DNA from: Lachnospiraceae bacterium
GTDB taxonomy: Bacteria > Bacillota > Clostridia > Lachnospirales > Lachnospiraceae
Assembly (NCBI GenBank): GCA_030531165.1
Contig: JAUNOI010000003.1
Coordinates: 21,196-85,195 of the forward strand
Length of the DNA: 64,000 nucleotides
Direction: 5' to 3'
Part shown: positions 10,016 to 64,000 of the stretch, piece by piece
How positions within the stretch are numbered: the first letter of the stretch is position 1
How the letters are laid out: each line of letters opens with the position of its first letter
The notes under the pieces: generated by a model
The model's database searches: none
Told to the model about the DNA's origin: nothing
What the model saw: only the letters and a program-made list of their open reading frames with translations
Made by a program: the position numbers and the translations under genes

Positions 10016-10066
10016 TTACAAATAATTTGTGAATGACTTTGTTTTAAGATAATAATGTTTATGCAG

Positions 10067-10101
10067 ACTATGCGAAATCCTTGTGGTTTCGCATAGTTTT
10101 T
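10067..10101 (+). terminator. Terminator of the PFOR gene
   Basis: A perfect 11-bp stem (ACTATGCGAAA/TTTCGCATAGT) with a 9-base loop and a following TTTT. Confidence 0.88.
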
Positions 10102-10126
10102 GCGCTTTATGTGAAATACATTTCAG

Positions 10127-10155
10127 TTGGCTTTTTGCTGTTTGTCTGCTATAAT
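10127..10155 (+). promoter_or_regulatory. Predicted sigma-A promoter of rpe
   Basis: TTGGCT and TATAAT with a 17-base spacer, 40 bases before the rpe start codon. Confidence 0.65.
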
Positions 10156-10195
10156 TTGTTGTAGCAGGACAACAAATAAAAAGGAGAAAATAATT

Positions 10196-10852: not shown

Positions 10853-10869
10853 ATATTGGAGGAAGAAAA

Positions 10870-48857: not shown

Positions 48858-48871
48858 GGAGGGTTGAGCAA

Positions 48872-50401
48872 ATGGGAGAATATGCCATTGAGATGCTTAA
48901 TATAACCAAACGGTTTCCGGGCATCATTGCAAATGACAATATTACATTACAGCTGAGAAAAGGCGAAATTCATGCTCTTTTAGGAGAAAACGGAGCAGGA
49001 AAATCCACATTGATGAGTGTATTATTTGGTCTTTATCAGCCGGAAGAAGGAGAAATCCATAAAGATGGCAAAAGAGTTACGATCAATGATCCAAACGATG
49101 CGAATGATCTGGGGATTGGAATGGTACACCAGCATTTCAAATTAGTAGAGTGTTTTTCCGTATTGGATAATATCATTCTTGGGGTAGAGCCGACGCAAAA
49201 CGGACTGTTGAAAAAAGATGCAGCCCGCAAAAAGGTCGTAGAATTATCTGAGAAATACCATCTTCAGGTGGATCCGGATGCGATCATTGAGGATATTACC
49301 GTCGGGATGCAGCAGAGAACGGAAATTTTAAAGATGCTCTACCGTGATAATGAAATTTTAATATTTGATGAACCGACCGCTGTGCTTACGGTGCAGGAGA
49401 TTGCGGAGTTGATGCAGATCATGAAGGGACTTGCGGCAGAAGGCAAGAGCATCCTCTTTATTTCTCATAAGTTAAACGAGATCATGGAGGTTGCTGACCG
49501 CTGTACGATACTCAGAAAAGGAAAATACGTAGGAACCGTTGACATTGCGGACACAACACCGGAAGGATTATCCGCAATGATGGTTGGAAGGGATGTCAGC
49601 TTTAATGTAGATAAGGCACCTGCAAAACCAGGCAAGACGGTATTAGAGGTAAAGGATATGTCCGTTGCTTCGGGAAGACATAAAAAAGATGCGGTTCAGA
49701 ATGTCAGCTTTCAAGTTCGAAGCGGGGAGATCGTATGTATTGCCGGCATTGACGGCAATGGACAGACGGAACTCGTCTACGGCCTATCAGGCTTAGCTCC
49801 ATTAAAAAGTGGAAGCATTCTATTAGATGGAAAGGATGTTTCGAAAGAGTCTATTCGTCAGCGTTCGATACTCGGACAAAGTCATATTCCGGAAGACCGG
49901 CATAAGCACGGACTCGTATTGGATTATTCGTTAGAAGATAATCTGGTGATCCAGAGGTATTTTGAACCGGAATTTACCGGAAAGTTTGGAATTTTAAAGA
50001 AAAATGCGATTCGCCAATATGCCAATAAACTGATTGAAAAATTTGACGTTCGTTCCGGACAGGGAGCCATTACGAGAACCCGCGATATGTCCGGCGGAAA
50101 TCAGCAAAAAGCGATCATAGCCCGTGAGATTGATAAAGATCCGCATTTTCTGATTGCTGTACAGCCTACAAGAGGGGTGGACGTTGGAGCTATTGAATTT
50201 ATCCACAAACAGATTGTTGCAGAGCGCGATAAAGGAAAAGGAGTTCTTTTGGTCAGCCTTGAATTAGATGAAGTTATGGATGTATCTGATAGAATCCTCG
50301 TTATGTATGAAGGAGAGATTGTCGGAGAATTTAAACCGGAAGAAATTACGGTAGAAGAACTTGGCCTGTATATGACAGGTGCCAAGAGACAGGAGGTTTA
50401 A
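48872..50401 (+). CDS. Nucleoside ABC transporter, dual ATP-binding protein
   Basis: A 509-residue protein with two ABC ATPase modules, as in RbsA/YufO. First half: Walker A GENGAGKST, Walker B ILIFDEPTAVLT. Second half: degenerate Walker A GIDGNGQTEL, signature MSGGNQQKAI. This form energises the two permeases encoded next. Ribosome site AGGAGGG is eight bases before ATG. Confidence 0.95.
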   Translation: MGEYAIEMLNITKRFPGIIANDNITLQLRKGEIHALLGENGAGKSTLMSVLFGLYQPEEGEIHKDGKRVTINDPNDANDLGIGMVHQHFKLVECFSVLDNIILGVEPTQNGLLKKDAARKKVVELSEKYHLQVDPDAIIEDITVGMQQRTEILKMLYRDNEILIFDEPTAVLTVQEIAELMQIMKGLAAEGKSILFISHKLNEIMEVADRCTILRKGKYVGTVDIADTTPEGLSAMMVGRDVSFNVDKAPAKPGKTVLEVKDMSVASGRHKKDAVQNVSFQVRSGEIVCIAGIDGNGQTELVYGLSGLAPLKSGSILLDGKDVSKESIRQRSILGQSHIPEDRHKHGLVLDYSLEDNLVIQRYFEPEFTGKFGILKKNAIRQYANKLIEKFDVRSGQGAITRTRDMSGGNQQKAIIAREIDKDPHFLIAVQPTRGVDVGAIEFIHKQIVAERDKGKGVLLVSLELDEVMDVSDRILVMYEGEIVGEFKPEEITVEELGLYMTGAKRQEV

Positions 50402-50404
50402 ACG

Positions 50405-51529
50405 ATGAATACTGCAAAAGAAAAGAAGAGCCTATTGACCAATGACGGTGTTCAAACTCTGCTTGCATCAATCGTATGTATCGTTTTGGGTCTTTTGGTT
50501 GGGTATATCGTGTTATTATTTATCAACCCTGCAGGTGCCGGGAAGGCTATCACTTCGATTTTGAAAAACTTTTTATACTTTCCTCGTCCGGCAATTGCAC
50601 TGGAGTATTTCGGAAGTACTTTAGCAAAATCTGCACCGCTTTTGATGTGTACGTTATCGGTATTGTTTGCATATAAAGTCGGTTTATTCAATATCGGAGC
50701 ATCCGGACAGTATGCAGTAGGAGCAGGACTCAGCTTATATCTTGCAATCGGTTATCATATGCCATGGTATGTCTGCATGATTGCGGCTATGATCGGAGGC
50801 GGAATCCTTGGAGGAATTGCAGGATTTTTAAAGGCATATTTAAATGTAAATGAAGTTATCGCATGCATCATGTTAAACTGGATCAGCTTATATGGAGTTA
50901 ATATGCTTCTTACAAATGTCAAGGAGTCGAGCACGACTTATACATTGGCATTAAGAACAAATAATCCGAAAGCGTTGATTCCAAGTCTGGGATTGAACCA
51001 TTTATTTTCCGATAACAGGTATGTGACGATTGCTATTCCATTGGCTGTTGTTTTTGCGATTCTGGTATGGGTTGTATTGGAAAAGACAAAACTCGGCTAT
51101 GAGTTAAAAGCAACGGGACTGAGTATCAATGCTGCAAAGTACGCAGGTATGAAAGAAAAGAAAAATATGATTCTTACCATGGTAATTGCAGGATGCCTGG
51201 CAGGCCTCGGAGCATCATTCTTATATTTGAGTGGAATTGAACAGTGGTCCTGTTCCCAGACGGCAGTACCTGCGATGGGATTTAATGGAATTGCTGCGGC
51301 ATTTCTTGGCGGTCTGCATCCGATCGGAAGTGTATTTGCATCATTTTTTATCCAGCACATTACAAGCGGTGGTGCTTATGTAGATAAGATGGTTTATTGT
51401 TCCCAGATTTCAGATTTGATTTCTTCAATCATTATTTACTTCTGCAGTTTTGTATTGTTCTTTAAGTACTGCATGAACCGGCATTTGAATAAAAAAGCGG
51501 AGAGACTGACAAAGAAAGGAGGAGAATAA
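50405..51529 (+). CDS. Nucleoside ABC transporter permease 1
   Basis: A 374-residue permease with about ten membrane segments. ALGSFNGIAAAFLGGLHPIGSVFASFF-like and LFNIGASGQYAVGAG blocks agree with the YufP/BmpC nucleoside permease family. It follows the ATPase gene by three bases. Confidence 0.94.
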   Translation: MNTAKEKKSLLTNDGVQTLLASIVCIVLGLLVGYIVLLFINPAGAGKAITSILKNFLYFPRPAIALEYFGSTLAKSAPLLMCTLSVLFAYKVGLFNIGASGQYAVGAGLSLYLAIGYHMPWYVCMIAAMIGGGILGGIAGFLKAYLNVNEVIACIMLNWISLYGVNMLLTNVKESSTTYTLALRTNNPKALIPSLGLNHLFSDNRYVTIAIPLAVVFAILVWVVLEKTKLGYELKATGLSINAAKYAGMKEKKNMILTMVIAGCLAGLGASFLYLSGIEQWSCSQTAVPAMGFNGIAAAFLGGLHPIGSVFASFFIQHITSGGAYVDKMVYCSQISDLISSIIIYFCSFVLFFKYCMNRHLNKKAERLTKKGGE

Positions 51530-51531
51530 TC

Positions 51532-52473
51532 ATGGCATTGTTATTACAGTATACACTTATTTATGCATCGGTATTATTCTTAGTCGCACTGGGCGGATGT
51601 TTCTCCGAACATAGCGGGGTTATCAACCTTGGTTTAGAAGGGGTCATGGTAATGGGAGCTTTAGGAGGAGCGCTTGTCATGAAATATATGGCAGCTTTAT
51701 CTGCAGCACCGATGATTATCTGTGTTATTTTGGGCAGTGTGGTATTTGGAGTGATTTATTCCCTGCTGTTAGCTGTGGCAGCAATTAATTTTAAAGCAGA
51801 CCAGACTCTGGTCGGAACTGCTATGAATCTGCTGGGGACAGCAGCGGCAACGGTATTCGTAAAAGCGATAAACATGGCAGAAGACCCAAATAATGTATCT
51901 TCTACGATCCAGTATATTAATCAGAAAAAGGCATTTTCCCTTGTAAAGATCGGCGGCTTTGAGATCAGCTGGTTTATGGTGCTGGCAGTCGTTATTTTGA
52001 TCGCATCGAATATTTTATTATATCGAACACGCTTTGGACTGCGTCTGATGGCATGTGGCGAACATCCGCAGGCGGCAGATTCTGTAGGAATTAATGTCTA
52101 TAAAATGCGTTATGCAGGCGTATTGATCTCCGGCGTATTAGGAGGACTTGGAGGTATCGTATATATTACGGCAGGCGTATCCGAATGGAAATTCGAAAAT
52201 GGTGTTGCCGGTTTTGGATTTCTTGCTTTAGCGGTTATGATTTTTGGCCAGTGGAAGCCAAATCTGATCGGACTGGCAGCATTGCTGTTCGGTTTGTTTC
52301 GCGCATTGTCAAACGTATACACCGGATTTGATGTATTGGTAGCTCTTCACCTGCCAAGCACGATTTATAATATGCTTCCATATATCATTTCGCTGATCGT
52401 ATTAGCAATTTTCTCTAAAAATTCCAGGGCGCCGAAAGCCGAAGGAATTCCATATGATAAAAGCCAGAGGTAA
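51532..52473 (+). CDS. Nucleoside ABC transporter permease 2
   Basis: A 313-residue second permease (VINLGLEGVMVMGALGGALV, GLRLMACGEHPQAADSVGIN, FGFLALAVMIFGQWKPN), like YufQ. Together with permease 1 it forms the membrane channel. Overlaps the kinase gene region by sharing TAATG. Confidence 0.94.
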   Translation: MALLLQYTLIYASVLFLVALGGCFSEHSGVINLGLEGVMVMGALGGALVMKYMAALSAAPMIICVILGSVVFGVIYSLLLAVAAINFKADQTLVGTAMNLLGTAAATVFVKAINMAEDPNNVSSTIQYINQKKAFSLVKIGGFEISWFMVLAVVILIASNILLYRTRFGLRLMACGEHPQAADSVGINVYKMRYAGVLISGVLGGLGGIVYITAGVSEWKFENGVAGFGFLALAVMIFGQWKPNLIGLAALLFGLFRALSNVYTGFDVLVALHLPSTIYNMLPYIISLIVLAIFSKNSRAPKAEGIPYDKSQR

Positions 52474-52478
52474 TGATC

Positions 52479-53399
52479 ATGGGAATGGTAGTAATTGGTG
52501 CAGTATTTGTGGATGTAAAAGGATATCCACAGACGCAGTTTATCCCGGGTGGAAGAAATGTTGGGAGCATTGAACGTGTTCATGGAGGAGTCGGACGAAA
52601 TGTAGCGGAGGATATTGCCAATATCGAGCTCAGACCGACATTTGTGAGTCTGGTCGATCGTGATGCCTCCGGAAAAGAAGTCATCGACAAATTGAAGAAC
52701 CATAAAGTGGATACGAGATATATCCGGCAAACGGAAGAAGGCATGGGAACCTGGCTGGCAGTTTTTAATAACGAGGGTGATGTCGTTGCATCCGTATCAA
52801 AGCGGCCTGATTTAAGACCAATTTTAAATATCCTGGATGAACAGGGTGATGAGATTTTTAAAGATGCAGATAGCATTATTGTTGAACTCGATATTGACAA
52901 AGAAATAATAAAAAAAGTTTTCTATTATGCGGATAAATATAACAAAGAAGTCTATGCGCTTGTATCCAATATGAGCATTGCTATCAAGCGCCGTGACTTT
53001 TTAAGAAGGACAAGTTGTTTTGTCTGCAATCAACAGGAAGCTGGCATGCTTTTTTCAGAAGATTATGGCAACTGCAATGTGGAAGAGATGAGCCGTATTT
53101 TAAAACAAAAAATACAATCGGCCAAAATCCGCCGAATGGTAGTTACAATAGGCGGCCAGGGAGCCGTATATGCGGAATTGGATGGAGAATATGGAGTTTG
53201 TTCTTCCATTCCGGTAGAAGTAGTGGATACGACAGGGGCCGGAGACTCCTTTTTTGCCGGAACTGCTATCGGTTTGACATATGGAAAAACATTGAAAGAA
53301 TCGTGTTTGATCGGAGCAAAGCTAGCAGCCTCGGTCATCTGTACATCGGAAAGCGTCTGTCCTAGATTTTTGCCGAGTGAAATCGGAATTGAATGCTAA
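52479..53399 (+). CDS. PfkB family (ribokinase-like) nucleoside or sugar kinase
   Basis: A 306-residue PfkB kinase with the N-terminal GGRNVGSIERVHGGVGRNVA motif and the C-terminal catalytic DTTGAGDSFFAG. Placed at the end of a nucleoside transporter and kinase operon it probably phosphorylates a nucleoside or pseudouridine; the substrate cannot be read. Start 52479 is chosen because AGAGG stands eight bases before it, rather than at the ATG of 52473, which is too close. Confidence 0.88.
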   Translation: MGMVVIGAVFVDVKGYPQTQFIPGGRNVGSIERVHGGVGRNVAEDIANIELRPTFVSLVDRDASGKEVIDKLKNHKVDTRYIRQTEEGMGTWLAVFNNEGDVVASVSKRPDLRPILNILDEQGDEIFKDADSIIVELDIDKEIIKKVFYYADKYNKEVYALVSNMSIAIKRRDFLRRTSCFVCNQQEAGMLFSEDYGNCNVEEMSRILKQKIQSAKIRRMVVTIGGQGAVYAELDGEYGVCSSIPVEVVDTTGAGDSFFAGTAIGLTYGKTLKESCLIGAKLAASVICTSESVCPRFLPSEIGIEC

Positions 53400-53405
53400 A
53401 CAAGG

Positions 53406-53445
53406 AAAAGCGGTAGGAGAATAGAAGTATTGTTCTACCGCTTTA
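53406..53445. terminator. Terminator between the PfkB operon and the split binding protein
   Basis: AAAGCGGTAG and CTACCGCTTT form a 10-bp stem with an 18-base loop that has further pairing. Confidence 0.6.
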
Positions 53446-53456
53446 TACGGCTATTT

Positions 53457-54026
53457 TTATTTTAATGCTTCTTTTGCATAGCTGTTGTCGACTAACGTGT
53501 CAAATGGAATCTTTTCTTTTAATTCTCCCGCTTCATTTAAAATATCCTGCAGCAGATCATAGCTGTCTTCATCAAAAACGGGAGTTTCTTTATACGTATC
53601 CTGTTCCATATAGCGTTTGAGTATTTTTATAAGATCTTTTTTTGATGTTTCTTTAAATTGCGGAGAGATAATATCTGCGATTTCCTCTGCGGTATGGCTG
53701 TTTACATATTGCTGGCCCTTGGCGATTGCTTTTGTAAAGCCTTTGACCGTATCTGCATTTTCTTTTAAATAACTCTTTTTCGCACAATAAGTGGTATAAG
53801 GGACGTAGCCGCTTTCGACACCGAGAGATGCAACAACATGACCGGCACCTTCCTTTTCAAGAGAAGTAGCGTTTGGCTCAAACTCAACGGTAAAATCGCC
53901 GGTACCTCCGGTAAACGCACCTGCTGTATTTGCAAAATCAATATTTTGGATCATATGGATATCCTTTTCCGGATCGATGCCGTTCTTTTTCAAAACATAC
54001 TCAAAGATCATCTCCGGCATACCACC
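53457..54026 (-). pseudogene. ABC-type substrate-binding protein, 3' half (interrupted)
   Basis: About 190 residues of the C-terminal lobe of an SsuA/NMT1-like binding protein (GGMPEMIFEYVLKKNGIDPE, NIDFANTAGAFTGGTGDFTVEFEPN, VPYTTYCAKKSYLKENADTV). It has no start codon or export signal of its own; the open frame before it belongs to the inserted recombinase gene. The matching 5' half is at 62888-63306 on the same strand. Joining the two at the shared core gives in-frame IGGRKGGMPEM, the expected family sequence. Such proteins bring sulfonates, pyrimidines or thiamine precursors to ABC permeases, none of which is visible here. Confidence 0.88.
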
Positions 54027-55938
54027 TGTTGACCGCATTACCATGTAAATTTTGTTCCCATTCTGCGCCAGATGATATGTTTGTCTGAAAGCTTTCTATC
54101 AATTCCTTCAGTTCTTTTTTTGATTTTATGATTAAATAAGGCTTTAAGGAGTTGTCTGTCGATTCTATGAATCCTTGATCCCTCATTAGATGAATATACG
54201 GTAATACGGATCTTCTGGATTTCGGATAACCGGCTTCGGTTAATTTGGAAGAAAGATATTTTGCGGAAGTAAAACCACGGTCATCCTCGTAGATTAGCTT
54301 CATTGTTGACAGGATAATCTCGTTTTCCTTTTTGTTTAGTTCGCTGGCAGGCCGATCTGTGATGAGATCAGAAAGATTATATTTTAATATAATATCCGGA
54401 AAACCATTTTCATCGACTGCAATCCTTTCAATTAGGATTTCAATATCTTTTCGATCCAGGATACCATTTTCTATGATTTCATCCAGAACTTCAAGAGCAG
54501 TCGTCCATGGATGTTTTCCATCCGGTGTTTTTCGTTCGGTCTTGGGAAGTTCCTGCAGCTGCATTTCGAGCAAATGAATATGTGCCAGAATGTCCTCTTG
54601 CAAAGCAAGATAACTTTCCGTGATCAGATCTTCATTTTTCGCATCAGAAGCCAAGTCTTTTATCTTTTGAGCGAATAAGGCCTTTAACTGTTTTTTTTGT
54701 CCATTCATCATTTTGCTGATTTCCAGCCTCTTTTCTTCTATCGATTTTTTCTCTGATTCAAAATCTTTCAAATGATAGTCGGCAATCGTTTCGCATAGGG
54801 TGTTCCGGCAAAGACGGATATAATTGATCACATCATTCATTAAAGCATTTTCTTCAATCAAATGTGCTTTTGGGCAATAGCGTTTTCCCTTTGAGTTGTA
54901 TGTACTGCATATATAATATTTTCGTTCTCCTTTCGATGTCATGCGAATAACAGGGGTAAGACGATTTCCACAATCTTTGCAAAACAGACAGGTTCCAAAT
55001 GGATGATGGATTTTCGTTTTGGAACATTTTCGCCGTCTGCCGCGATAATTTGTTTTCGCACGTTTGACTTTGATATCCTGTACGAGTTCAAAGGATGATT
55101 TATCGATGATAGCAGGATGATGATTCTCAAAAATGTATTGTTTTTCTGTTGGGATTCGTTTGTCTTTTCCGTGAACGGTAGTTCTGGCGCGCTTATGAAG
55201 GCGGTAGGTTCCAATATAGAAGTCATTGTCAAGAATATTCTTTACCATGCTGTCAGACCATTCTGGTACTACCTGCCAATTGCTGTGTTTTCCCTCCGCA
55301 AGTTCTCTCTCATGCCGGACAGCAGAGGGAGTAGGTACAAGATTTTCTGTTAGATAGGTGGCAATTTTTCGGTACCCAAAGCCTTGCATATAAAGTTCAT
55401 AAATCTGTTTGATCTGTTCCGCTTCATTCGGTACGATTTCAATGATTTCTTTCTTTTTATCATTTCTTTTATAACCGAATGGTACGCATGTCAAAAGTGT
55501 TCCCTCTTTCTGGCGTGCTCTTAGGACACGACGGATTTTCTTGCTGGTGTCTTTTACATATTTTTCGTTATACCACGTTTTAATGCCGATGATATCGTCA
55601 TCCGGCGTAAAGGAATCATAATTATCATCGATGACGATCAGATGTTTTCCACGTTCCTGAAACTCATCCAGCAAAAGCAGAACTTTCGCATTATGCCGTC
55701 CAAGGCGGGAGAAATCCTTCACCAATACCGTGTCAAGATCCTTATTCAGATCTGCCATCATCTGCTGAAAACCCGGACGGTCAAATTTATAGCCGGAAAT
55801 ACCATCATCTTCATACCAACGGTCTATGACAATATTTTTTGAAGCAGCATATTGGTTAATAATTAGTTTTTGATTTTCAATGGAAACATAGCTTCGTTTA
55901 TCATCATCCCTCGACAGCCTGACATATCCTGCGTTCAT
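54001..55938 (-). CDS. Large serine recombinase (site-specific integrase)
   Basis: A 645-residue serine recombinase. Catalytic Ser9 is in GYVRLSRDDDKR; resolvase domain residues ~1-145 (VKDFSRLGRHNAKV). A recombinase domain follows to ~270, then a zinc ribbon (CLFCKDCGNRL..YYICSTYNSKGKRYCP), and a long coiled coil (~370-450). The last seven residues (WYAGDDL) and the stop codon come from the interrupted target gene beyond the core. In the excised circle the same frame would end at AGG TGA after Arg. It would drive integration and excision of the element. Confidence 0.95.
   Translation of the reverse strand: MNAGYVRLSRDDDKRSYVSIENQKLIINQYAASKNIVIDRWYEDDGISGYKFDRPGFQQMMADLNKDLDTVLVKDFSRLGRHNAKVLLLLDEFQERGKHLIVIDDNYDSFTPDDDIIGIKTWYNEKYVKDTSKKIRRVLRARQKEGTLLTCVPFGYKRNDKKKEIIEIVPNEAEQIKQIYELYMQGFGYRKIATYLTENLVPTPSAVRHERELAEGKHSNWQVVPEWSDSMVKNILDNDFYIGTYRLHKRARTTVHGKDKRIPTEKQYIFENHHPAIIDKSSFELVQDIKVKRAKTNYRGRRRKCSKTKIHHPFGTCLFCKDCGNRLTPVIRMTSKGERKYYICSTYNSKGKRYCPKAHLIEENALMNDVINYIRLCRNTLCETIADYHLKDFESEKKSIEEKRLEISKMMNGQKKQLKALFAQKIKDLASDAKNEDLITESYLALQEDILAHIHLLEMQLQELPKTERKTPDGKHPWTTALEVLDEIIENGILDRKDIEILIERIAVDENGFPDIILKYNLSDLITDRPASELNKKENEIILSTMKLIYEDDRGFTSAKYLSSKLTEAGYPKSRRSVLPYIHLMRDQGFIESTDNSLKPYLIIKSKKELKELIESFQTNISSGAEWEQNLHGNAVNRWYAGDDL
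54023..54052. other. Left attachment site (attL) of the element
   Basis: Core CACCT (54023-54027), then 15 bases, then the arm ATGTAAATTT (54043-54052), which is the inverted partner of the arm at the right end. Confidence 0.75.
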
Positions 55939-56011
55939 AAAAGCCTCCTAATATATATTGAAAAAATAGAAACAAAATTTGATCATAAGATACATGAATT
56001 TTCTGAATATG

Positions 56012-56200
56012 TTAATCGTGGTTGATCGGGTAATGATTTTTAATCAGAGCCTTTAATCCATCGTGTATATTCTTTTCACTTTGTGCGTCTTGATAAATCA
56101 CAACACGGAAACCAAAATCAGTGTATTTCTTTTTCTCTTTTGATAAAGCATCTTCGTTCTGAAAATCAGATTTCCAGAGATAATAGACAGGCTTTGCCAA
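56012..56200 (-). CDS. Small conserved-looking protein of unknown function
   Basis: A 62-residue protein (starts MAKPVYYLWKSDFQNEDALS) with a TTG start codon preceded by GAAAGG ten bases upstream. It is rich in Lys, Tyr and Asp, ends NHYPINHD, and has no membrane segment or Cys. It stands between the recombinase and carB inside the element, in the same direction as the recombinase. A role in excision is conceivable, but I have no evidence for it. Confidence 0.5.
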   Translation of the reverse strand: MAKPVYYLWKSDFQNEDALSKEKKKYTDFGFRVVIYQDAQSEKNIHDGLKALIKNHYPINHD

Positions 56201-56310
56201 CGTATGACATCCTTTCAGATTTTCTTCATGTGTAAATTATGAGAAAAGTCAATGGTTGTGCGTGTCCAATAATGAAAAAGAAACTTTTTTACAAAAATTC
56301 TTCAAAAAGA

Positions 56311-56338
56311 TTGCGATTTGAAAAACTTTCTTTATAAT
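56311..56338 (+). promoter_or_regulatory. Predicted promoter of carB
   Basis: TTGCGA and TATAAT with a 16-base spacer, 46 bases before the carB start codon. No PyrR-type attenuator is seen between promoter and gene. Confidence 0.65.
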
Positions 56339-56384
56339 AGAAAGTGTATGAGATTGAAAAATTTGATAAAGAAGGAGATTTTTT

Positions 56385-59300
56385 ATGCCAAAAAGAACGG
56401 ATATTCACAAAGTACTTATTATCGGTTCCGGACCGATCGTTATTGGACAGGCGTGTGAGTTTGACTATTCTGGTACACAGGCTTGTAAAGCTTTAAAAAA
56501 ATTAGGATATGAGATCGTATTAGTAAACTCAAATCCTGCTACGATCATGACGGATCCGGAGACGGCAGATGTCACTTATATTGAACCATTGAATGTGGAA
56601 CGTTTGGAGCAGATTATTGCAAAAGAACGGCCGGATGCAGTACTTCCTAATCTGGGCGGACAGTCTGGGCTGAATTTATGTGCAGAGTTGAGCAAAGAGG
56701 GAATTTTAGACAAATATAACGTACAGGTGATCGGCGTCCAGATTGATGCAATCGAACGTGGAGAAGATCGCATTGAGTTTAAGAACACGATGAATGAACT
56801 CGGTATCGAGATGGCCCGCAGCCAGGTTGCATACAGCGTAGAAGAAGGACTTGAGATCGCGGACCGTTTAGGATATCCTGTTGTGCTTCGGCCGGCATAT
56901 ACGATGGGTGGAGCCGGAGGCGGACTCGTTTATAATAAAGAAGAATTAAAGACAGTTATGGCACGAGGACTTCAGGCAAGCCTTGTAGGACAGGTGTTAG
57001 TAGAAGAATCTATTTTAGGTTGGGAAGAATTAGAATTAGAGGTTGTTCGCGACTCAGAAGGCAATATGATCACAGTGTGCTTCATTGAGAACATTGACCC
57101 GATGGGTGTGCATACCGGAGATTCTTTCTGTGCAGCACCGATGCTTACGATTTCAAAAGAAGTACAGGCAAGACTTCAGGAACAGGCTTACAAAATTGTT
57201 GATTCTGTACAGGTAATCGGCGGCACGAACGTACAGTTCGCGCATGATCCGGTCAGTGATCGAATCATTGTTATTGAAATCAATCCGCGTACTTCCCGTT
57301 CATCCGCACTTGCATCGAAGGCAACTGGATTCCCGATTGCTTTAGTTTCTGCAATGCTCGCAACGGGTCTTACATTAAAAGATATTCCATGTGGAAAATA
57401 TGGCACGCTTGATAAATATGTTCCGGATGGAGATTATGTTGTAATTAAGTTTGCACGCTGGGCATTTGAAAAGTTTAAAGGGGTAGAGGATAAACTTGGC
57501 ACCCAGATGCGCGCAGTCGGCGAAGTTATGAGCATCGGTAAAAACTATAAAGAAGCATTCCAGAAAGCGATCCGCAGCCTGGAGACCGGACGTTATGGAC
57601 TTGGACATGCAAAGGATTTTGATACAAAATCCAAAGAAGAATTATTGAAGATGCTGATTACGCCGAGCAGTGAACGTCATTTCATTATGTATGAGGCCTT
57701 AAGAGCCGGTGCAACGGTTGATGAGATCTATGAATTGACGAGAGTTAAGAAGTATTTTATTGAACAGATGAAAGAATTGGTAGAAGAGGAAGAAGAACTT
57801 CTGAAATCCAAAGGATCTCTTCCGGCAGATGACTTGCTGATTTCGGCGAAAAGAGACGGATTTTCTGATAAGTATATCAGCCAGATTCTGGAAATCAGTG
57901 AGGACGATGTTCGAAACAGACGAATCAGCCTTGGCGTGGAAGAAGCATGGGAAGGCGTACACGTAAGTGGTACACCGGATAGTGCATACTATTATTCTAC
58001 TTACAATGCAGAGGATAAGAATCCGATCAAAGAGGACAAACCAAAGATCATGATCTTAGGCGGCGGCCCGAACCGTATCGGTCAGGGTATCGAGTTTGAT
58101 TACTGCTGCGTACATGCTTCTCAGGCATTGAAGAAATTAGGATTTGAAACGATTATCGTAAACTGTAATCCGGAGACAGTATCTACTGATTATGATACCT
58201 CGGATAAATTATACTTCGAACCATTGACATTAGAAGATGTATTGAGCATCTATAATAAAGAAAAACCGCTCGGAGTGATTGCGCAGTTTGGTGGACAGAC
58301 ACCACTGAACTTAGCTTCCGAATTAGAAAAGAACGGAGTTCGTATCCTGGGTACTTCTCCGGCAGTCATTGATTTGGCAGAGGACCGCGATCAGTTCCGT
58401 GCAATGATGGATAAACTGGAAATTCCTATGCCGGAATCGGGCATGGCAACTACGGTAGACGAAGCGCTCAAAATCGCAGAAGAGATCGGATATCCGGTTA
58501 TGGTGCGTCCATCTTATGTCCTTGGCGGACGTGGTATGGAAGTTGTATATGATCCGGAATCCATGACCGGTTATATGAAAGCGGCAGTCGGTGTGACTCC
58601 TGACAGACCAATTTTGATCGACCGTTTCTTAGGTCATGCGACAGAATGCGAGGCAGACGCGATCAGCGACGGTACCCATGCATTTGTACCTGCGGTTATG
58701 GAACACATCGAACTTGCAGGCGTACATTCCGGAGATTCTGCATGTATCGTTCCATCTGCACATATTTCTGATGAGAACGTTGCGACGATCAAAGAATATA
58801 CGAGGAAGATTGCAGAAGAGATGCATGTCCGCGGATTGATGAATATGCAGTATGCGATTGAGAATGGCAAAGTCTTCGTATTAGAAGCGAATCCGCGTGC
58901 TTCCCGTACGGTACCGTTAGTATCGAAAGTCTGCAATATTCGCATGGTGCCGCTTGCAACAGAGATTATTACATCGGAGATTACAGGACGTCCGTCACCG
59001 GTTCCGAATTTAAAAGAACAGGTGATCCCGAATTATGGAGTAAAAGAAGCTGTATTCCCATTCAATATGTTCCAGGAAGTTGACCCGATTTTAGGACCGG
59101 AAATGCGTTCTACCGGAGAAGTTTTAGGTCTTTCCAGCTCTTATGGAGAGGCTTTCTATAAAGCACAGGAGGCAGCATCTCTGAAACTGCCATTAGATGG
59201 CACTGTACTGATCTCGGTTAACCGCAAGGATAAAGAAGAAGTGGTCGATGTTGCGAAGATTTTTGCAGAAAATGGATTCCGTATTCTTGCAACAGAAGGC

Positions 59301-59609
59301 AATTATAAACGGATCAGCGAAGCCGGTATTCCTGCTGAGAAAGTGAAAAAGCTCCATGAAGGCCGTCCGAATATTTATGATCTGATCACAAACGGAAAGA
59401 TTGATATTGTCATCAATTCTCCGGTTGGCAAGGATAGTACAAATGATGACAGCTACCTGAGAAAGGCTGCGATCAAGGCGAAGATTCCATATTATACAAC
59501 AATTGCAGCAGCTCTTGCGACTGCAAAGGGAATTCATGAGATTAAAGTGAATGGAAACAGCGAGATAAAATCTCTTCAGGAATTGCATAGCGAAATTCAC
59601 GATAAATAA
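56385..59609 (+). CDS. carB: Carbamoyl-phosphate synthase large subunit homologue
   Basis: A full-length 1074-residue CarB with two homologous ATP-grasp halves (VLIIGSGPIVIGQACEFDYS and MILGGGPNRIGQGIEFDYCC) and a C-terminal MGS-like allosteric domain (LISVNRKDKEEVVDVAKIF..). It would make carbamoyl phosphate for pyrimidines and arginine from ammonia, bicarbonate and two ATP. No carA small subunit is adjacent, though CarA normally supplies the ammonia. Several stretches (MTISKEVQARLQEQAYKIVD) differ from housekeeping CarB that I recall, so it could be a paralogue. It is carried inside the element. Confidence 0.93.
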   Translation: MPKRTDIHKVLIIGSGPIVIGQACEFDYSGTQACKALKKLGYEIVLVNSNPATIMTDPETADVTYIEPLNVERLEQIIAKERPDAVLPNLGGQSGLNLCAELSKEGILDKYNVQVIGVQIDAIERGEDRIEFKNTMNELGIEMARSQVAYSVEEGLEIADRLGYPVVLRPAYTMGGAGGGLVYNKEELKTVMARGLQASLVGQVLVEESILGWEELELEVVRDSEGNMITVCFIENIDPMGVHTGDSFCAAPMLTISKEVQARLQEQAYKIVDSVQVIGGTNVQFAHDPVSDRIIVIEINPRTSRSSALASKATGFPIALVSAMLATGLTLKDIPCGKYGTLDKYVPDGDYVVIKFARWAFEKFKGVEDKLGTQMRAVGEVMSIGKNYKEAFQKAIRSLETGRYGLGHAKDFDTKSKEELLKMLITPSSERHFIMYEALRAGATVDEIYELTRVKKYFIEQMKELVEEEEELLKSKGSLPADDLLISAKRDGFSDKYISQILEISEDDVRNRRISLGVEEAWEGVHVSGTPDSAYYYSTYNAEDKNPIKEDKPKIMILGGGPNRIGQGIEFDYCCVHASQALKKLGFETIIVNCNPETVSTDYDTSDKLYFEPLTLEDVLSIYNKEKPLGVIAQFGGQTPLNLASELEKNGVRILGTSPAVIDLAEDRDQFRAMMDKLEIPMPESGMATTVDEALKIAEEIGYPVMVRPSYVLGGRGMEVVYDPESMTGYMKAAVGVTPDRPILIDRFLGHATECEADAISDGTHAFVPAVMEHIELAGVHSGDSACIVPSAHISDENVATIKEYTRKIAEEMHVRGLMNMQYAIENGKVFVLEANPRASRTVPLVSKVCNIRMVPLATEIITSEITGRPSPVPNLKEQVIPNYGVKEAVFPFNMFQEVDPILGPEMRSTGEVLGLSSSYGEAFYKAQEAASLKLPLDGTVLISVNRKDKEEVVDVAKIFAENGFRILATEGNYKRISEAGIPAEKVKKLHEGRPNIYDLITNGKIDIVINSPVGKDSTNDDSYLRKAAIKAKIPYYTTIAAALATAKGIHEIKVNGNSEIKSLQELHSEIHDK

Positions 59610-59682
59610 GCTGAAACATGAAATAGCAAAGGAATACCGGCATTTGCCGGGTTCTTTTGCTGCTATCATTAAGGAGGATAAT

Positions 59683-61089
59683 ATGGGTGGTTTTTTTGGC
59701 GTAACATCAAAACAGGATTGTGTATTTGATCTGTTTTTTGGAACGGATTATCATTCACACCTTGGAACAAGACGTGCAGGGATGGCGGTATATGATAAAG
59801 AAAAAGGATTTGACCGTGCGATTCATAATATTGAAAATTCACCTTTCCGTACAAAATTTGACAGAGATGTCAATATTATGCAGGGAAATATGGGAATCGG
59901 ATGTATTTCGGATTATGAGCCGCAGCCTTTGATCGTGCGTTCTCATCATGGGACTTATGCGATCATGACCGTTGGTAAAATTAACAATATTGATCAGATC
60001 ATTAAGGATATTTTTAAGACAGGGCATGCGCATTTTTTGGAAATGAGTGGTGGAGATATCAATGCGACGGAGTTGGTTGCTGCGATCATTAACCAGAAGG
60101 ATAATATTATAGAAGGAATTCAATACGCGCAGGAGATTATCGATGGTTCAATGTCGATTGTCCTTTTGACGCCAAAAGGAATCTATGCGGCCAGAGACAG
60201 ACTGGGAAGAACTCCGATTGCACTGGGGCAAAATGATGATGGATATTGCCTCGCTTTTGAAAGCTTTTCTTATCTGAACCTCGGTTACCGTGCTCTTAGA
60301 GAATTGGGACCGGGAGAGATTGTTATTATGACGCCGGAATCTGTCCGGACGTTGGTAAAACCTGGAACGGAGATGAAGATCTGCACATTTCTATGGGTTT
60401 ATTATGGATATCCATCTTCTTCCTATGAGGGAATTAGTGTAGAAAAGATGAGATATCACTGTGGTGAGAAGCTTGCACAGAGGGATAATGCCAAACCGGA
60501 TATTGTGGCTGGTGTTCCGGATTCCGGTACGGCTCATGCGGTTGGATATGCGAATGCATCCGGAATTCCGTTTTCCAGACCATTTATTAAGTATACGCCG
60601 ACATGGCCGCGTTCCTTTATGCCAACGATGCAGAGCAGACGAAATCTGATCGCGAAGATGAAATTAATTCCTGTTCATGATTTGATTGAGAATAAAAGCT
60701 TGTTGTTGATTGATGATTCTATCGTTCGTGGAACGCAGCTTCGAGAAACGACGGAATTCTTGTATAAAAGCGGAGCGAAAGAAGTTCATGTCAGACCTGC
60801 GTGTCCACCAATTATGTATGGCTGCAAATATTTGAATTTCTCACGTTCTACTTCAGATATGGATCTGATTGCACGCCGTGTGATCGCGGAGATGAATGTG
60901 GGATATAAACATGTCAATCTTGCACCATATTCTGATCCTGATACGCCGGAATATCAAAATATGATTGACCGGATCTGCGAAAAGCTGAATTTCACATCCC
61001 TGCGTTATCACAGACTGGATGATATGATAGAGTCAGTAGGGTTAGATAGAAGCAAATTATGTACTTACTGTTGGGACGGAAGAGAATAA
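59683..61089 (+). CDS. PurF-like amidophosphoribosyltransferase paralogue lacking the catalytic cysteine
   Basis: A 468-residue protein with the Ntn glutaminase plus PRTase architecture of PurF. The PRPP loop LLLIDDSIVRGTQLRETT is intact and so are parts of the glutaminase core (HLGTRRAGMAVYD). The N-terminus is MGGFFGV where PurF has MCGIVGI-like sequence, so the nucleophilic Cys is Gly. It cannot hydrolyse glutamine by the known mechanism and may use free ammonia or have another task. The ATG at 59683 follows AAGGAGGATAAT; it lies 73 bases after carB and is probably co-transcribed. Confidence 0.9.
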   Translation: MGGFFGVTSKQDCVFDLFFGTDYHSHLGTRRAGMAVYDKEKGFDRAIHNIENSPFRTKFDRDVNIMQGNMGIGCISDYEPQPLIVRSHHGTYAIMTVGKINNIDQIIKDIFKTGHAHFLEMSGGDINATELVAAIINQKDNIIEGIQYAQEIIDGSMSIVLLTPKGIYAARDRLGRTPIALGQNDDGYCLAFESFSYLNLGYRALRELGPGEIVIMTPESVRTLVKPGTEMKICTFLWVYYGYPSSSYEGISVEKMRYHCGEKLAQRDNAKPDIVAGVPDSGTAHAVGYANASGIPFSRPFIKYTPTWPRSFMPTMQSRRNLIAKMKLIPVHDLIENKSLLLIDDSIVRGTQLRETTEFLYKSGAKEVHVRPACPPIMYGCKYLNFSRSTSDMDLIARRVIAEMNVGYKHVNLAPYSDPDTPEYQNMIDRICEKLNFTSLRYHRLDDMIESVGLDRSKLCTYCWDGRE

Positions 61090-61098
61090 GGTAAGAAC

Positions 61099-61137
61099 AA
61101 GACCCGGAAAACAGATGACTGTTTTGTCCGGGTCTTT
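61099..61137. terminator. Bidirectional terminator between PurF-like and nicotinamidase-like genes
   Basis: AAGACCCGGAAAACA with TGTTTTGTCCGGGTCTT, a 15-bp stem with one bulge, six-base loop, T and A ends. Confidence 0.9.
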
Positions 61138-61148
61138 TGAATGGCAAT

Positions 61149-61673
61149 TTATTCATGTTCAATCTGAATCTGACAGGCTTTCATCGCCTGAAGGGCAGTC
61201 TTGTGGCTTTCCGGCGTTACTCCGGCACAGCATGATGCATCAACGATCAATACTGCTTCCGGTAGAAATGCTTTGATGAGCATCACATTGGAAATAACAC
61301 AAATATCTGTACATAATCCGATAAAAGTAATGCTTTGAATCGGCTCTTTTTGGTCCATAGCTGTCAATATGGAAGCTAGTTCGGAAGAACCAAAGGTGAC
61401 TTTGTCAATTGCTTTTTCTGTACGCAGAGCTTCGAGTTCTGGATGGATCTCCCATCCTTTTGTTCCTCTGATGCAGTGCGGAACAGGGAGATTTTGTCCT
61501 TCCTGTGTCTGCATATAATCTGTGTCATGTGTATCCCTTGTGAAGAGGATCTTTCCATCAAAGGTCTTTATCTTTTGTATAACATTGGGTATGATAGCCT
61601 GTGCTTCAGCGGTCCCCAACGTTCCATCGATAAAATCATTCTGCATATCAACTACAATTAATATATTCTGCAT
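61149..61673 (-). CDS. Isochorismatase-family cysteine hydrolase (nicotinamidase-like)
   Basis: A 174-residue cysteine hydrolase. Catalytic Asp9 is in IVVDMQNDF and the Cys in GLCTDICVISN; FTRDTHDTDYMQTQEGQNLP and PVPHCIRGTKGWEIHPEL supply the metal-binding Asp and His residues seen in nicotinamidases. The likely reaction is nicotinamide to nicotinate, feeding NAD salvage, but other amide substrates are possible. It is followed on the same strand by no gene up to the terminator and preceded by the NUDIX gene 13 bases away. Confidence 0.88.
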   Translation of the reverse strand: MQNILIVVDMQNDFIDGTLGTAEAQAIIPNVIQKIKTFDGKILFTRDTHDTDYMQTQEGQNLPVPHCIRGTKGWEIHPELEALRTEKAIDKVTFGSSELASILTAMDQKEPIQSITFIGLCTDICVISNVMLIKAFLPEAVLIVDASCCAGVTPESHKTALQAMKACQIQIEHE

Positions 61674-61686
61674 GTGGCTCTCCTTA

Positions 61687-62187
61687 TTATTCGAAAGCTT
61701 TTTTTATGCTGTCATAATGGAGAAAGATCCCTTGTGCAGCAAATTCTTTGATTTCATCTAGTGTTGCGAGCATATATCCATCGATTTCCACTTCCTGAAA
61801 ATTCAGATCGGATTCATCGAAATCCTTAATAAAGCGATACACATCTACAAAGTAGTTATCACCTTCTCCGGGATTTTCACGGTGGTAATCGAATAGGAAA
61901 CCACCTTCAGCATTGGAAACATCCAGCCCGGTTTCTTCTTTGACTTCACGAATGACTGCATCTTTGGAAGATTCGCCTGCTCGGACACCTCCTCCGGAAA
62001 CTTCCCACCAGCCGGGAGCCCAGCTTTTTGTCATAACACGTTTGGTGATCAAAAACTTTCCATCTGGCCGTACGATTACGCCCAACACGGTCAAATGATA
62101 TTCATCATCCGCAAGACACCAGTCATTCCGTTTCATTGTCCGTCCGGTTTTCTGTTTATTTTTATCATAAATATCCCAGTATTCCAT
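61687..62187 (-). CDS. NUDIX hydrolase
   Basis: A 166-residue NUDIX protein with the signature GGGVRAGESSKDAVIREV plus KEETGLDV, the GX5EX7REUXEEXGU motif. N-terminal MEYWDIYDKNKQKTGRTMKR resembles isopentenyl-diphosphate isomerase-like and 8-oxo-type NUDIX starts. The substrate is a nucleoside diphosphate derivative of unknown identity. It is 13 bases before the nicotinamidase-like gene on the minus strand and shares its transcript. Confidence 0.9.
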   Translation of the reverse strand: MEYWDIYDKNKQKTGRTMKRNDWCLADDEYHLTVLGVIVRPDGKFLITKRVMTKSWAPGWWEVSGGGVRAGESSKDAVIREVKEETGLDVSNAEGGFLFDYHRENPGEGDNYFVDVYRFIKDFDESDLNFQEVEIDGYMLATLDEIKEFAAQGIFLHYDSIKKAFE

Positions 62188-62355
62188 GTGTTTTATTCCT
62201 TTCTCATTTTAATTATAAATCGTATTATAGCATAAAAATCTGCTTTCGGAAGAGTTTTGTAAAAATTCACGGAAAATTAAGAGTTGCAATCTTCCATGAA
62301 TCAAAAGTTATGGTATAATAAAAAAAGCAGATATACTAAAGGAGAAGGCAGTCAT

Positions 62356-62628
62356 ATGAAAAATAATGAGAGATGGTCGATTGCTATGTTTATTATTATT
62401 TTTATTCTTGCAGTATGTGAATTTATTATATTGCCGGATGGAATTGGAATTCGTTTAGGTGACGGATTAAAGCATTATTGCAGAATAAAACCATATGAGA
62501 TCATTGTTCCGGTCCTTATTTCAGGTTTTGGAGCAGGGCTTGTGCATCATGGAACGATTCGAAAGGGGATCATCTTTTTTTTAATTGGAATCATCATTTT
62601 TATTGCAACATTTATTTATCAATTATAG
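62356..62628 (+). CDS. Small membrane protein of unknown function
   Basis: A 90-residue protein with three hydrophobic segments (WSIAMFIIIFILAVCEFIIL, IIVPVLISGFGAGLVHHG and GIIFFLIGIIIFIATFI). GGAGAAGGCAGTCAT precedes the ATG at 62356. No family recognised. It lies 37 bases before the Cys-rich protein and may be co-expressed. Confidence 0.7.
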   Translation: MKNNERWSIAMFIIIFILAVCEFIILPDGIGIRLGDGLKHYCRIKPYEIIVPVLISGFGAGLVHHGTIRKGIIFFLIGIIIFIATFIYQL

Positions 62629-62665
62629 AGACTTTAAAGAAGGTATCCAATACGAAGGAAATATT

Positions 62666-62860
62666 ATGACAGAAAAAAAGAAGATTTACGGTACATGCGA
62701 AACATGTACTTATTATAGTTACGATGAAGAATTTGAAGAATATGTGTGTGATGTGAATATGGATGAAGATGAGTACTGCAGGTTTTTATCCAGCAAGCAC
62801 TATCAATGCCCTTATTGGAGAGATGGTAACGAATATGCGGTTGTTCGTCATCAGATGTAA
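62666..62860 (+). CDS. Small Cys-rich putative metal-binding protein
   Basis: A 64-residue protein with Cys in CETCTYYSYD, EYVCDVNMDEDEYCRF and HYQCPYWRDG, five in all, reminiscent of a Zn-ribbon-like small family common in Lachnospiraceae (from memory). Its stop codon is 22 bases from the right core of the element, so it lies just inside the border. GAAGGAAATATT precedes the ATG at 62666. Confidence 0.75.
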   Translation: MTEKKKIYGTCETCTYYSYDEEFEEYVCDVNMDEDEYCRFLSSKHYQCPYWRDGNEYAVVRHQM

Positions 62861-62887
62861 ATTTACATTGTGCATTGGCAGTCACCT
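62859..62887. other. Right attachment site (attR) of the element
   Basis: Arm AAATTTACAT (62859-62868), 14 bases, then core CACCT (62883-62887). Joined to attL's element side at the core, the arms face one another as a 10-bp inverted repeat. Confidence 0.75.
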
Positions 62888-63306
62888 TTTCGACCGCCGA
62901 TGACATCTTTGCCTTTGATATGATCCCAGCTGAAATTTTTGATTTCTTTTCTGGAGATCAAGAAGTTTCCGGCACGTTGTGTCAGCTGAGCAAAGTTTAC
63001 AGCATAATCCCGGTTACCTTCTTGATATTGATAAATGGTTGCTTCAGGACCCATGAATCCGATGTCCGCATCGCCGGATATGACAGCTGTCATCGTTTTG
63101 TCAGCGCCGAATCCCGTCTCTACATCCAGATCGATTCCTTCCTCTTTAAAATATCCCAATTCAATCGCAACATATTGAGGGGCATAAAAGATGGAATGAG
63201 CAACTTCATTCAGTGTGACTTTCTTTAATGATGGGGTTTTTTGACATCCATAAATACAGCATAGACATATGAGAAGCAAAGATGTCATAAATGCATACTT
63301 TTTCAT
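62863..63306 (-). pseudogene. ABC-type substrate-binding lipoprotein, 5' half (interrupted)
   Basis: The signal peptide and N-terminal lobe of an SsuA/NMT1-like binding protein (lipobox IYGC; LNEVAHSIFYAPQYVAIELGYF, ISGDADIGFMGPEATIYQYQ). After IKGKDVIGGRKG the frame enters the element and ends within eight residues (DCQCTM then stop). True homology ends at 62888. The ATG at 63306 follows TTGGAGTTATTT. A short exported lipoprotein may still be made but lacks the second lobe. Confidence 0.88.
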
Positions 63307-63358
63307 AAATAACTCCAAACTTTTTTCTTTATTCTATGTGAATCATGAGAATTTGTTC

Positions 63359-63386
63359 TTGAAAAATTTTTTTACTGTGGTACACT
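63359..63386 (+). promoter_or_regulatory. Predicted promoter of the YerC gene
   Basis: TTGAAA and TACACT with 16-base spacer; 100 bases before the start codon. Confidence 0.45.
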
Positions 63387-63486
63387 GGTTATAGAGTGCT
63401 TTAGTACGTTAAAAAATTAGAGTGTGACGTTGAACAACATTAGAATAGGGGATTTTAGAATACCTTTTAAAGATGGAGGAATAGAT

Positions 63487-63783
63487 ATGGGAAAGACGAT
63501 TAGAACTCCGGAAGTAGAACAGCTTTTTCGTGCGATTCTGACTTTGAACTCTGTAGAAGAATGCTTTACCTATTTTGAAGATATCTGCACAGTGAATGAA
63601 CTATTATCACTTGCGCAGCGTTTTGAGGTTGCCCGGATGTTACGGGAACATCATACGTATTTAGAAGTAGCGAATAAGACGGGAGCATCTACTGCCACGA
63701 TCAGCCGTGTGAACCGCTCTTTGAATTATGGCAATGATGGATATGATATGGTCTTTAGCCGTATGAAAGAAGCAGAAGAATAA
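63487..63783 (+). CDS. TrpR-like protein YerC/YecD
   Basis: A 98-residue helical DNA-binding protein of the TrpR/YerC-YecD family. It has the C-terminal helix-turn-helix (HTYLEVANKTGASTATISRVNRSLNYG). The family resembles the Trp repressor but the effector in Firmicutes is not known to me. The ATG at 63487 follows GGAGGAATAGAT. Confidence 0.9.
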   Translation: MGKTIRTPEVEQLFRAILTLNSVEECFTYFEDICTVNELLSLAQRFEVARMLREHHTYLEVANKTGASTATISRVNRSLNYGNDGYDMVFSRMKEAEE

Positions 63784-63784
63784 A

Positions 63785-63832
63785 TATAGCCACAATGAAA
63801 ATCCGTTGTGGCTATTTCTTTTTCTTTTTTTT
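63785..63832. terminator. Terminator after the YerC gene
   Basis: ATAGCCACAA pairs with TTGTGGCTAT with an 11-base loop and a long T/C-rich tail; it also overlaps the end of the gene on the other strand. Confidence 0.8.
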
Positions 63833-63994
63833 GTCAGTTTTTTCATCTTCCGGGGTGTAGAGTGAATCGATCATGCCTTCAATAATCTGTTTTTTCATAT
63901 AAATATCAAAAGATAAGGTAGTAATAAAGGCCAGATTTTGTAAAAATTCTTTTTCATTTTCATCTTTTATTTCACAAAAAGATTCTTTGCTCAT
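63812..63994 (-). CDS. Hypothetical small protein
   Basis: A 60-residue frame (MSKESFCEIKDENEKEFLQN..) ending in a poly-Lys tail encoded by the T-rich terminator region. The upstream sequence is outside the window, so its ribosome site and true start cannot be checked. Composition is protein-like in its first 50 residues. No family recognised. Confidence 0.45.
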   Translation of the reverse strand: MSKESFCEIKDENEKEFLQNLAFITTLSFDIYMKKQIIEGMIDSLYTPEDEKTDKKKKKK

Positions 63995-64000
63995 CTTTAA

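Follow-up and report, generated by a model that had tools for sequence, protein, structure and literature searches.

Within a 64,000-nucleotide stretch of the genome of a Lachnospiraceae bacterium (the window), two parts of a gene for a binding lipoprotein lie on either side of 8.86 kb of other DNA. This locus raises the question of what separated the two parts and whether the gene was thereby lost or can still be used. An original prediction, made from the letters of this stretch, described one gene split by an insert, with both halves on one strand in an order compatible with insertion, CACCT at both breakpoints and the reading frame restored on joining. Each of these points was borne out (Table 1). 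It is very probable that the insert is an integrative element of a large serine recombinase (LSR) family with a dedicated target, the Gly146 codon of a SsuA/NMT1-like lipoprotein gene, in Lachnospiraceae; this estimate excludes reversibility, which is weighed separately below.

When the halves were joined at the core, a single open frame of 329 codons plus a stop was obtained, which contained VIGGRKGGMPEM, and the spacing of the two CACCT copies gave an insert length of 8,860 bp (54023-62882). The joined protein was compared with those of other genomes; hereafter, G000 denotes the window's genome, and G001, G002, G003 and G004 denote the other members of its genus that were compared. It aligned end to end and free of stops with the product of the intact G003 gene (84% identity, residues 1-329), and both halves matched this one gene, not different proteins. 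In the numbering of the G003 protein, the split codon is Gly146, which spans the core. The alignment with intact relatives that the original prediction had proposed as a check was also found in many more distant genomes, where a single open frame matched most of the joined protein at 44-65%. Some match (E<=0.001) was present in 46 of 61 genomes, a part of these matches being remote paralogues at about 22-33% identity. The two halves had the Pfam families NMT1 and NMT1_2 in common. The nearest model for the intact protein was the SsuA family (79.8 of 163.5 bits); because this score is below the cut-off, the naming should go no further than "SsuA/NMT1-like". A signal peptide and a lipobox were recognised by eye in the 5' half, and no signal peptide of its own was visible in the 3' half (by eye only, no predictor). 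Because relatives carry the identical split at the identical codon, the split is neither chance nor an assembly slip.

The neighbourhood of the intact G003 copy agreed with both flanks of the window, with yerC on the 5' side and S51, TsaA and modABC genes on the 3' side, apart from an additional operon (47020-53399) on the window's 3' side. This operon, which separates the 3' half from the LUD/deaminase genes, is a probable nucleoside-type ABC transporter operon with a sugar kinase (labels by eye). In G004 the LUD/deaminase genes come directly after the 3' half, which makes 47020-53399 another lineage-specific difference.

The attachment sites were then reconstructed. Rejoining the insert ends produced a symmetric attP, TTTACAT-N16-GG-N16-ATGTAAA, whose central GG constitutes bases 1-2 of the Gly146 codon and which is overlapped by the 3' end of the LSR gene. 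The empty site of G003 reads CGCCT, not CACCT, at the core position. For this reason, GG between inverted-repeat arms, and not CACCT as a universal target, appears to be the common core across the sites of the window's recombinase group. The target, the junctions and the insert length thus stand as originally given, with an empty site in a relative in addition, but the central GG is a better placement for the crossover than CACCT as a whole. Arms and spacing of the window's kind were also found in several other genera, and a more distant recombinase subgroup (e.g. L109-L111) had different arms. A scan of 397 same-family genomes with the attP pattern yielded matches at 4 places in 3 genomes, which were judged by eye to be chance. 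Having attL and attR with a common core, an attP with inverted arms and an empty attB in a relative, the insert is a site-specific integrative element.

The recombinase gene adjoins the left end of the insert (attL). Its product unites resolvase, recombinase and zinc-ribbon domains in one long protein and is therefore a large serine recombinase. In the integrated state it has 645 residues, the final 7 of which are encoded beyond the core by host DNA; in the predicted circle it would have 638 residues and be terminated by a TGA formed at the core. Ser9, which is invariant among 10 aligned members, stands at the usual position of the catalytic serine. A 62-residue open reading frame (ORF) upstream of the LSR gene has relatives at 57 of 80 recombinase loci and a single weak sub-threshold match (MrpA_fam), and it may be regarded as a candidate directionality factor. 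At three other loci (L110, L111 and L113), a stop-free recombinase frame was seen to continue into the 3' half of the lipoprotein gene, forming single ORFs of 811-863 residues.

The association of the recombinase with the lipoprotein gene was studied across genomes. The LSR was present at E<=1e-100 in 16 of the 397 same-family genomes, and the 3' half of the gene adjoined it in 16 of 16. A scan of named genomes, overlapping in genomes with this set, covered the best 80 of 347 LSR relatives (the remaining 267 are outside the count), which together with 14 viral loci gave 94 loci. At LSR identities of at least 41%, fragments of the gene were near the LSR in 74 of 76 loci, the other two being cut by contig ends (L129, L189); no fragment was nearby at four loci with 35-38% identity (L192, L194, L195, L196). 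The 3' half began no more than 500 bp from the recombinase at 69 of 80 genome loci and 1 of 14 viral loci, and five further genome loci had a gene fragment nearby (L142, L152, L171, L183, L185). A recombinase with a nearby 3' half and an upstream 5' half was found at 24 of 80 genome loci and 1 of 14 viral loci. The 13 viral loci without a gene fragment had LSR identities of 38% or less. In all 12 genomes selected for long contigs, both halves lay on the same strand in the correct order around inserts of 3.5 to about 39 kb, and in two of them the lipoprotein gene was in three pieces. Judged from these loci, the LSR family is dedicated to one codon (Gly146) of the SsuA/NMT1-like lipoprotein gene across Lachnospiraceae.

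Among the 40 closest LSR pairs listed (0-4% apart), 36 were in hosts whose 3' halves differed by 20-43%. Over 70 loci, LSR distances were only weakly correlated with 3'-half distances (Mantel r 0.17; 33 of 999 permutations were as high). Because near-identical recombinases occur in widely diverged hosts, the family is evidently horizontally mobile and recently spread, and purely vertical inheritance was ruled out on the same grounds. Some family members contain a D5-type primase, and some carry a putative relaxase gene or presumed toxin-antitoxin-like or Abi-like genes; the putative relaxase of the G004 copy received no family in the Pfam scan. Chromosome-like genes were also noted beside the right end of two inserts, namely HPr and an antiterminator (CAT_RBD/PRD) at L109:7199-8646 and a DUF1538 protein with a PII-like gene (PII-like by eye) at L115:6354-8467.

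Several other identities of the insert were tried. The Pfam scan of its 8 ORFs revealed no phage family, and among annotated phages only two records matched the LSR at E<=1e-60 (35.0% and 32.6%), so that a prophage was rejected. Of 14 LSR matches in IMG/VR, one was close (63%, L197), and it is located inside the same split host gene. No plasmid record matched the LSR at E<=1e-60, which ruled out a plasmid-borne family. No relaxase was found among the 8 ORFs by Pfam (oriT was not searched for). A known RNA or riboswitch was rejected, as Rfam gave 0 matches at the gathering score in 52400-64000, and a tRNA target was rejected because no tRNA gene lies within the window.

The origin of the payload was traced through the same genomes. 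Besides the carB gene of the insert, a second carB lies beside a carA-like gene (label by eye) on another contig of the window's genome (G000 C118). Orthologues of the insert's carB occupy other loci in G001 (90%) and G002 (89%) and the left end of the corresponding insert in G004 (95%); none was seen in the G003 assembly. In G003 the NUDIX, isochorismatase and PurF-like genes, and in G001 the NUDIX, PurF-like and carB genes, are grouped on a contig other than that of the binding-protein gene. Outside the genus, 20 of 32 same-family genomes had the PurF-like gene at no less than 57% identity; contigs were compared for ten of these, and in each the gene was on a different contig from the binding-protein gene. 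Since payload genes occupy other loci or contigs in members of the genus and in same-family genomes, the payload consists of chromosomal genes, not typical cargo. A simple LSR-mediated inversion as its origin was rejected, as it fails alone to give the same-strand order, which would take two steps, neither of them observed.

Table 1. Coordinates of the split gene, the attachment sites and the genes of the insert in the window.
Feature	Coordinates	Strand	Remarks
3' half of the SsuA/NMT1-like lipoprotein gene	53457..54023	-	From Gly147; Pfam NMT1_2 E 1.5e-10; matches G003 residues 146-334
Large serine recombinase (LSR)	54001..55938	-	Pfam Resolvase PF00239, Recombinase PF07508 and Zn_ribbon_recom PF13408, all above cut-off
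Left core CACCT (attL)	54023..54027		Inferred crossover dinucleotide GG (minus strand) at 54025-54026
Left attP arm, TTTACAT on minus strand	54043..54049		16 bp off core GG; within 3' end of LSR gene
62-residue ORF upstream of LSR	56012..56200	-	No Pfam family; candidate directionality factor
Carbamoyl-phosphate synthase large subunit, orphan carB paralogue	56385..59609	+	NCBIfam CPSaseII_lrg above cut-off
PurF-like amidotransferase/phosphoribosyltransferase paralogue	59683..61089	+	Pfam GATase_7; TIGR01134 purF below cut-off
Isochorismatase-family hydrolase	61149..61673	-	Pfam PF00857 E 1.8e-29
NUDIX hydrolase	61687..62187	-	Pfam PF00293 E 2.8e-17
Small protein, orf114	62356..62628	+	No assigned family; relatives at same locus in G001, G003, G004
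DUF6472 protein	62666..62860	+	Pfam PF20076 E 6.9e-26; stop codon abuts right attP arm
Right attP arm, ATGTAAA on minus strand	62862..62868		16 bp off core GG; beside DUF6472 stop codon
Right core CACCT (attR)	62883..62887		Inferred crossover dinucleotide GG (minus strand) at 62885-62886
5' half of the SsuA/NMT1-like lipoprotein gene	62887..63306	-	Through Lys145; Pfam NMT1 E 7.7e-12; matches G003 residues 1-146

The state of the locus was compared within the genus. At the same codon, G001 (Anaerostipes sp. 992a) has a 9.3-kb insert that contains a recombinase 64% identical to that of the window and other genes; relatives of one of these, an ABC1-type kinase, occupy other loci in G002, G003 and G004. 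In G004 (Candidatus Fimousia stercorigallinarum), the right junction is followed by the DUF6472, orf114, NUDIX and isochorismatase genes in the same order as in the window. The payload genes of the G004 insert include a different recombinase (47%), and none is present beside its left half-site, which is immediately abutted by the carB promoter. This promoter was found on two contigs, its two copies having one mismatch over 148 bp; one copy is joined to the 3' half, and the other to a complete attP, behind which lies a primase-bearing element. The complete attP is on contig C27 (L052:4731-4778; the other version is at the end of L030), beside a D5-type primase gene, and is the only convincing attP among the genomes searched. 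The two junction versions would correspond either to a tandem element or to a strain mixture. In the purF-like tree, the order (G001,(G003,(window,G004))) was obtained with supports 91/95, 99/97 and 100/99, which places the intact G003 between split lineages; G002 grouped apart from these four, and the branching of G001 relative to G003 was not resolved in the carB2 tree. A single insertion with one precise loss would be consistent with the purF-like tree, and so would two insertions.

The window and G004 share the junction of 5' half, half-site and DUF6472 stop codon without a spacer, and the synonymous divergence of their payload genes is about equal to that of the flanking gene yerC. For these two reasons, the split is taken to have been inherited by both from a common ancestor, with some doubt because the middle of the G004 insert lacks physical linkage in the assembly. 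Neither a stop nor a frame-breaking gap was found in the halves of G000 and G004. For the 3' half of this pair, the Nei-Gojobori method gave a nonsynonymous rate (dN) of 0.094, a synonymous rate (dS) of 1.16 and a ratio (omega) of 0.081; for both halves, the maximum-likelihood estimate over 325 codons was dN 0.090, dS 1.92 and omega 0.047. These values indicate that both halves evolved under purifying selection in G000 and G004. The maximum-likelihood estimate for G000 and G001 (omega 0.785, dS 0.21) was rejected as a failed fit, since it contradicts a near-saturated proportion of synonymous differences (pS) of 0.74-0.86; for the remaining pairs involving G001 or G003, the estimates were mostly saturated or failed and were left aside. 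A comparison of TsaA with that of G004 was excluded because its coordinates were out of frame.

Across the family, substitutions in columns that are invariant in intact genes were not more common in split genes (0.012 and 0.010 vs 0.018 and 0.022). This comparison says little because most insertions are recent, and for the same reason the intact halves elsewhere were rejected as proof of function; the argument is drawn exclusively from the G000/G004 pair. The comparison covered 82 3' and 36 5' fragments, including duplicate genomes (e.g. L028/L137 and L112/L175), of which 10 and 3, respectively, were not full length. L177 was scored as full length though its halves are frameshifted (overlapping pieces), a state that alignments halting at a stop codon would hide.

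The following mechanism may be proposed. The LSR would recombine attP with attB in the gene and leave the halves in attL and attR; the anatomy is directly visible, and the catalysis is attributed from the family. In the window's genus, the element appears to have become a long-term resident; chromosomal genes lie within it, and no transfer gene was recognised there. The LSR, perhaps with the 62-residue protein as directionality factor, would still excise the element in some cells or states, and the lipoprotein would be made from the rejoined gene after excision. Given the purifying selection on both halves, the chances that excision continues and the gene is still made seem about even, and occasional excision would be the simplest reason for the constraint because the 3' part could hardly be exported alone. 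The intact gene of G003 and the two junction versions of G004 bear on regulated, precise excision only indirectly. The entire reading, namely that the lipoprotein gene was interrupted so long ago that synonymous sites are nearly exhausted and is yet functional, the interruption being reversible, possibly programmed, outside sporulation and due to an element with swallowed chromosomal metabolic genes, is offered only tentatively.

Several points weigh against reversibility. The proportion of nonsynonymous differences (pN) between the halves of G000 and G004 (0.09) is about as large as that between G000 and the intact G003 (ratios 1.0 and 0.8). Since the ratios for four control genes (purF-like, yerC, NUDIX and isochorismatase) are only 0.16-0.65, the split lineage may have lost part of the constraint. 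Intact halves elsewhere in the family are expected merely from recent insertions. The window's assembly contains no intact gene and no convincing attP, one mismatched match being taken as chance. Finally, excision would remove the orphan carB and the purF-like gene from the chromosome. A rival explanation is a permanent knock-out, in which an ordinary integrase element broke a dispensable gene and the halves are intact only for lack of time. The recent horizontal spread of most of the LSR family agrees with it, as does the report that integrative and mobilizable elements (IMEs) with serine recombinases disrupt dispensable genes (PMC5704250). However, the right junction is common to the window and G004 at dS above 1 and omega near 0.05-0.08, and by our own estimate omega 0.081 would permit at most about 8% of the elapsed time to be neutral; a permanent knock-out is considered somewhat unlikely.

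An insert that can no longer be excised is also considered unlikely: rearrangement, instead of att recombination, would have placed the payload between the halves of a relic element. The presence of payload genes at other loci in other genus members would fit this, as would G004, with no recombinase beside its left half-site and a different, 47%-identical one further in, but in the window the half-sites, the arms and the LSR frame are all intact. If element-bearing and element-free cells coexisted in each species, the halves could be kept clean through homologous recombination that draws on intact alleles, and regular excision by the LSR would be unneeded. The G003 gene is intact and the orphan carB is absent from its assembly, so that element-free cells are probably viable, and the G004 assembly has two junction versions. 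Nevertheless, single genomes of both species carry the shared junction, and the polymorphism would have to outlast speciation; such a population seems rather improbable. That the halves act as separate polypeptides is extremely unlikely. Long open frames are kept in both halves, an in-frame ATG occurs within the window's left half-site and the recombinase frame is fused into the 3' half at the three loci mentioned above, whereas a surface-binding lobe encoded by a 3' half without a visible signal peptide could hardly be exported.

Further breaks were observed in the same gene. At eight loci (L117, L118, L127, L142, L171, L180, L186 and L187), the gene match ends near codon 193 (GDFTV), as if at a second interruption. 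At L226, from the same genome as L127, an unrelated 460-residue serine recombinase, 24% identical (ORF 7553-8932, in the gene's orientation), directly adjoins the last part of the gene. A third interruption near codon 70-80 was seen at L228 and L180 and possibly at L144, L186 and L197; at L228 (Anaerocolumna sp. MB42-C2), a third recombinase of 552 residues, 30% identical (ORF 9342-10997, in the gene's orientation), lies beside this break. Three recombinase groups appear to use one lipoprotein gene.

Because the LSR family has one conserved target codon over many gut genera and a computed attP consensus, the integrase-attB pair is directly testable, and it may serve as a tool in Lachnospiraceae that are genetically intractable. 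Should the interruption be reversible, programmed gene rearrangement would reach beyond sporulation and nitrogen fixation into nutrient uptake, and an integrase element could carry chromosomal genes without destroying its host gene; excision would then also move the orphan carbamoyl-phosphate synthase and the PurF-like gene onto the circle. As an integrase insertion the locus is ordinary; its interest is as a candidate for a long-lived, reversible gene interruption.

The insert was compared with known systems. IMEs and islands with a single serine recombinase are known (PMC5704250), and like the window's insert they have the recombinase at one end, a very short direct repeat and a single target within a protein gene. 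The insert differs from them in having no recognised relaxase or transfer gene by the Pfam scan and in its payload of chromosomal metabolic genes. Of the defining IME features, an own relaxase or oriT, the relaxase was not found in its 8 ORFs. Other members of its LSR family are larger, with an insert of up to about 39 kb. IME_Rho_tet of gut Clostridia (PMC12904643) likewise carries a serine recombinase, occurs in gut Lachnospiraceae, has inverted repeats at its ends and prefers one kind of target, MAFF2-type small ORFs (116 of 256); by its description, that target differs from the window's gene. Staphylococcal cassette chromosome (SCC)-type cassettes also use a serine recombinase, and re-use of the site by a further element, as in these cassettes, is suggested by G004; they differ in target and in their Ccr recombinases, the LSR remaining well under the cut-offs of the NCBIfam Ccr models (90.2 of 900 bits for CcrB).

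The gene-intervening elements skin (sigK), SPbeta (spsM) and gin (gerE) (PMC5595907) resemble the window's insert in that a host gene is split in frame by a serine-recombinase element, with intact halves that can be precisely rejoined. The gin element similarly has no phage genes, but it is 28.6 kb long and has three recombinases, whereas the insert has 8,860 bp and one LSR (PMC5595907). The target here is a nutrient-type binding lipoprotein gene instead of a sporulation gene. With an in-frame split by a recombinase element and both halves apparently under selection, the insert would belong among the gene-intervening elements. The LSR scored 90.9 of 375 bits with the XisF model, below its cut-off. 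Single-target LSR clusters, in which many diverged recombinases share one conserved attB in one gene, e.g. that of prolyl isomerase, were described by Durrant et al. (PMC10083194), and the window's diverged LSR family likewise shares one in-gene target. The terms NMT1, ABC transporter and Lachnospir are absent from the main text of that paper (supplements not covered), and no description of a SsuA/NMT1-like lipoprotein gene as an integrase target was found in the literature consulted, again apart from supplements. Therefore, the kind of element is known, and its target, its payload and its long-lived constraint are the new points.

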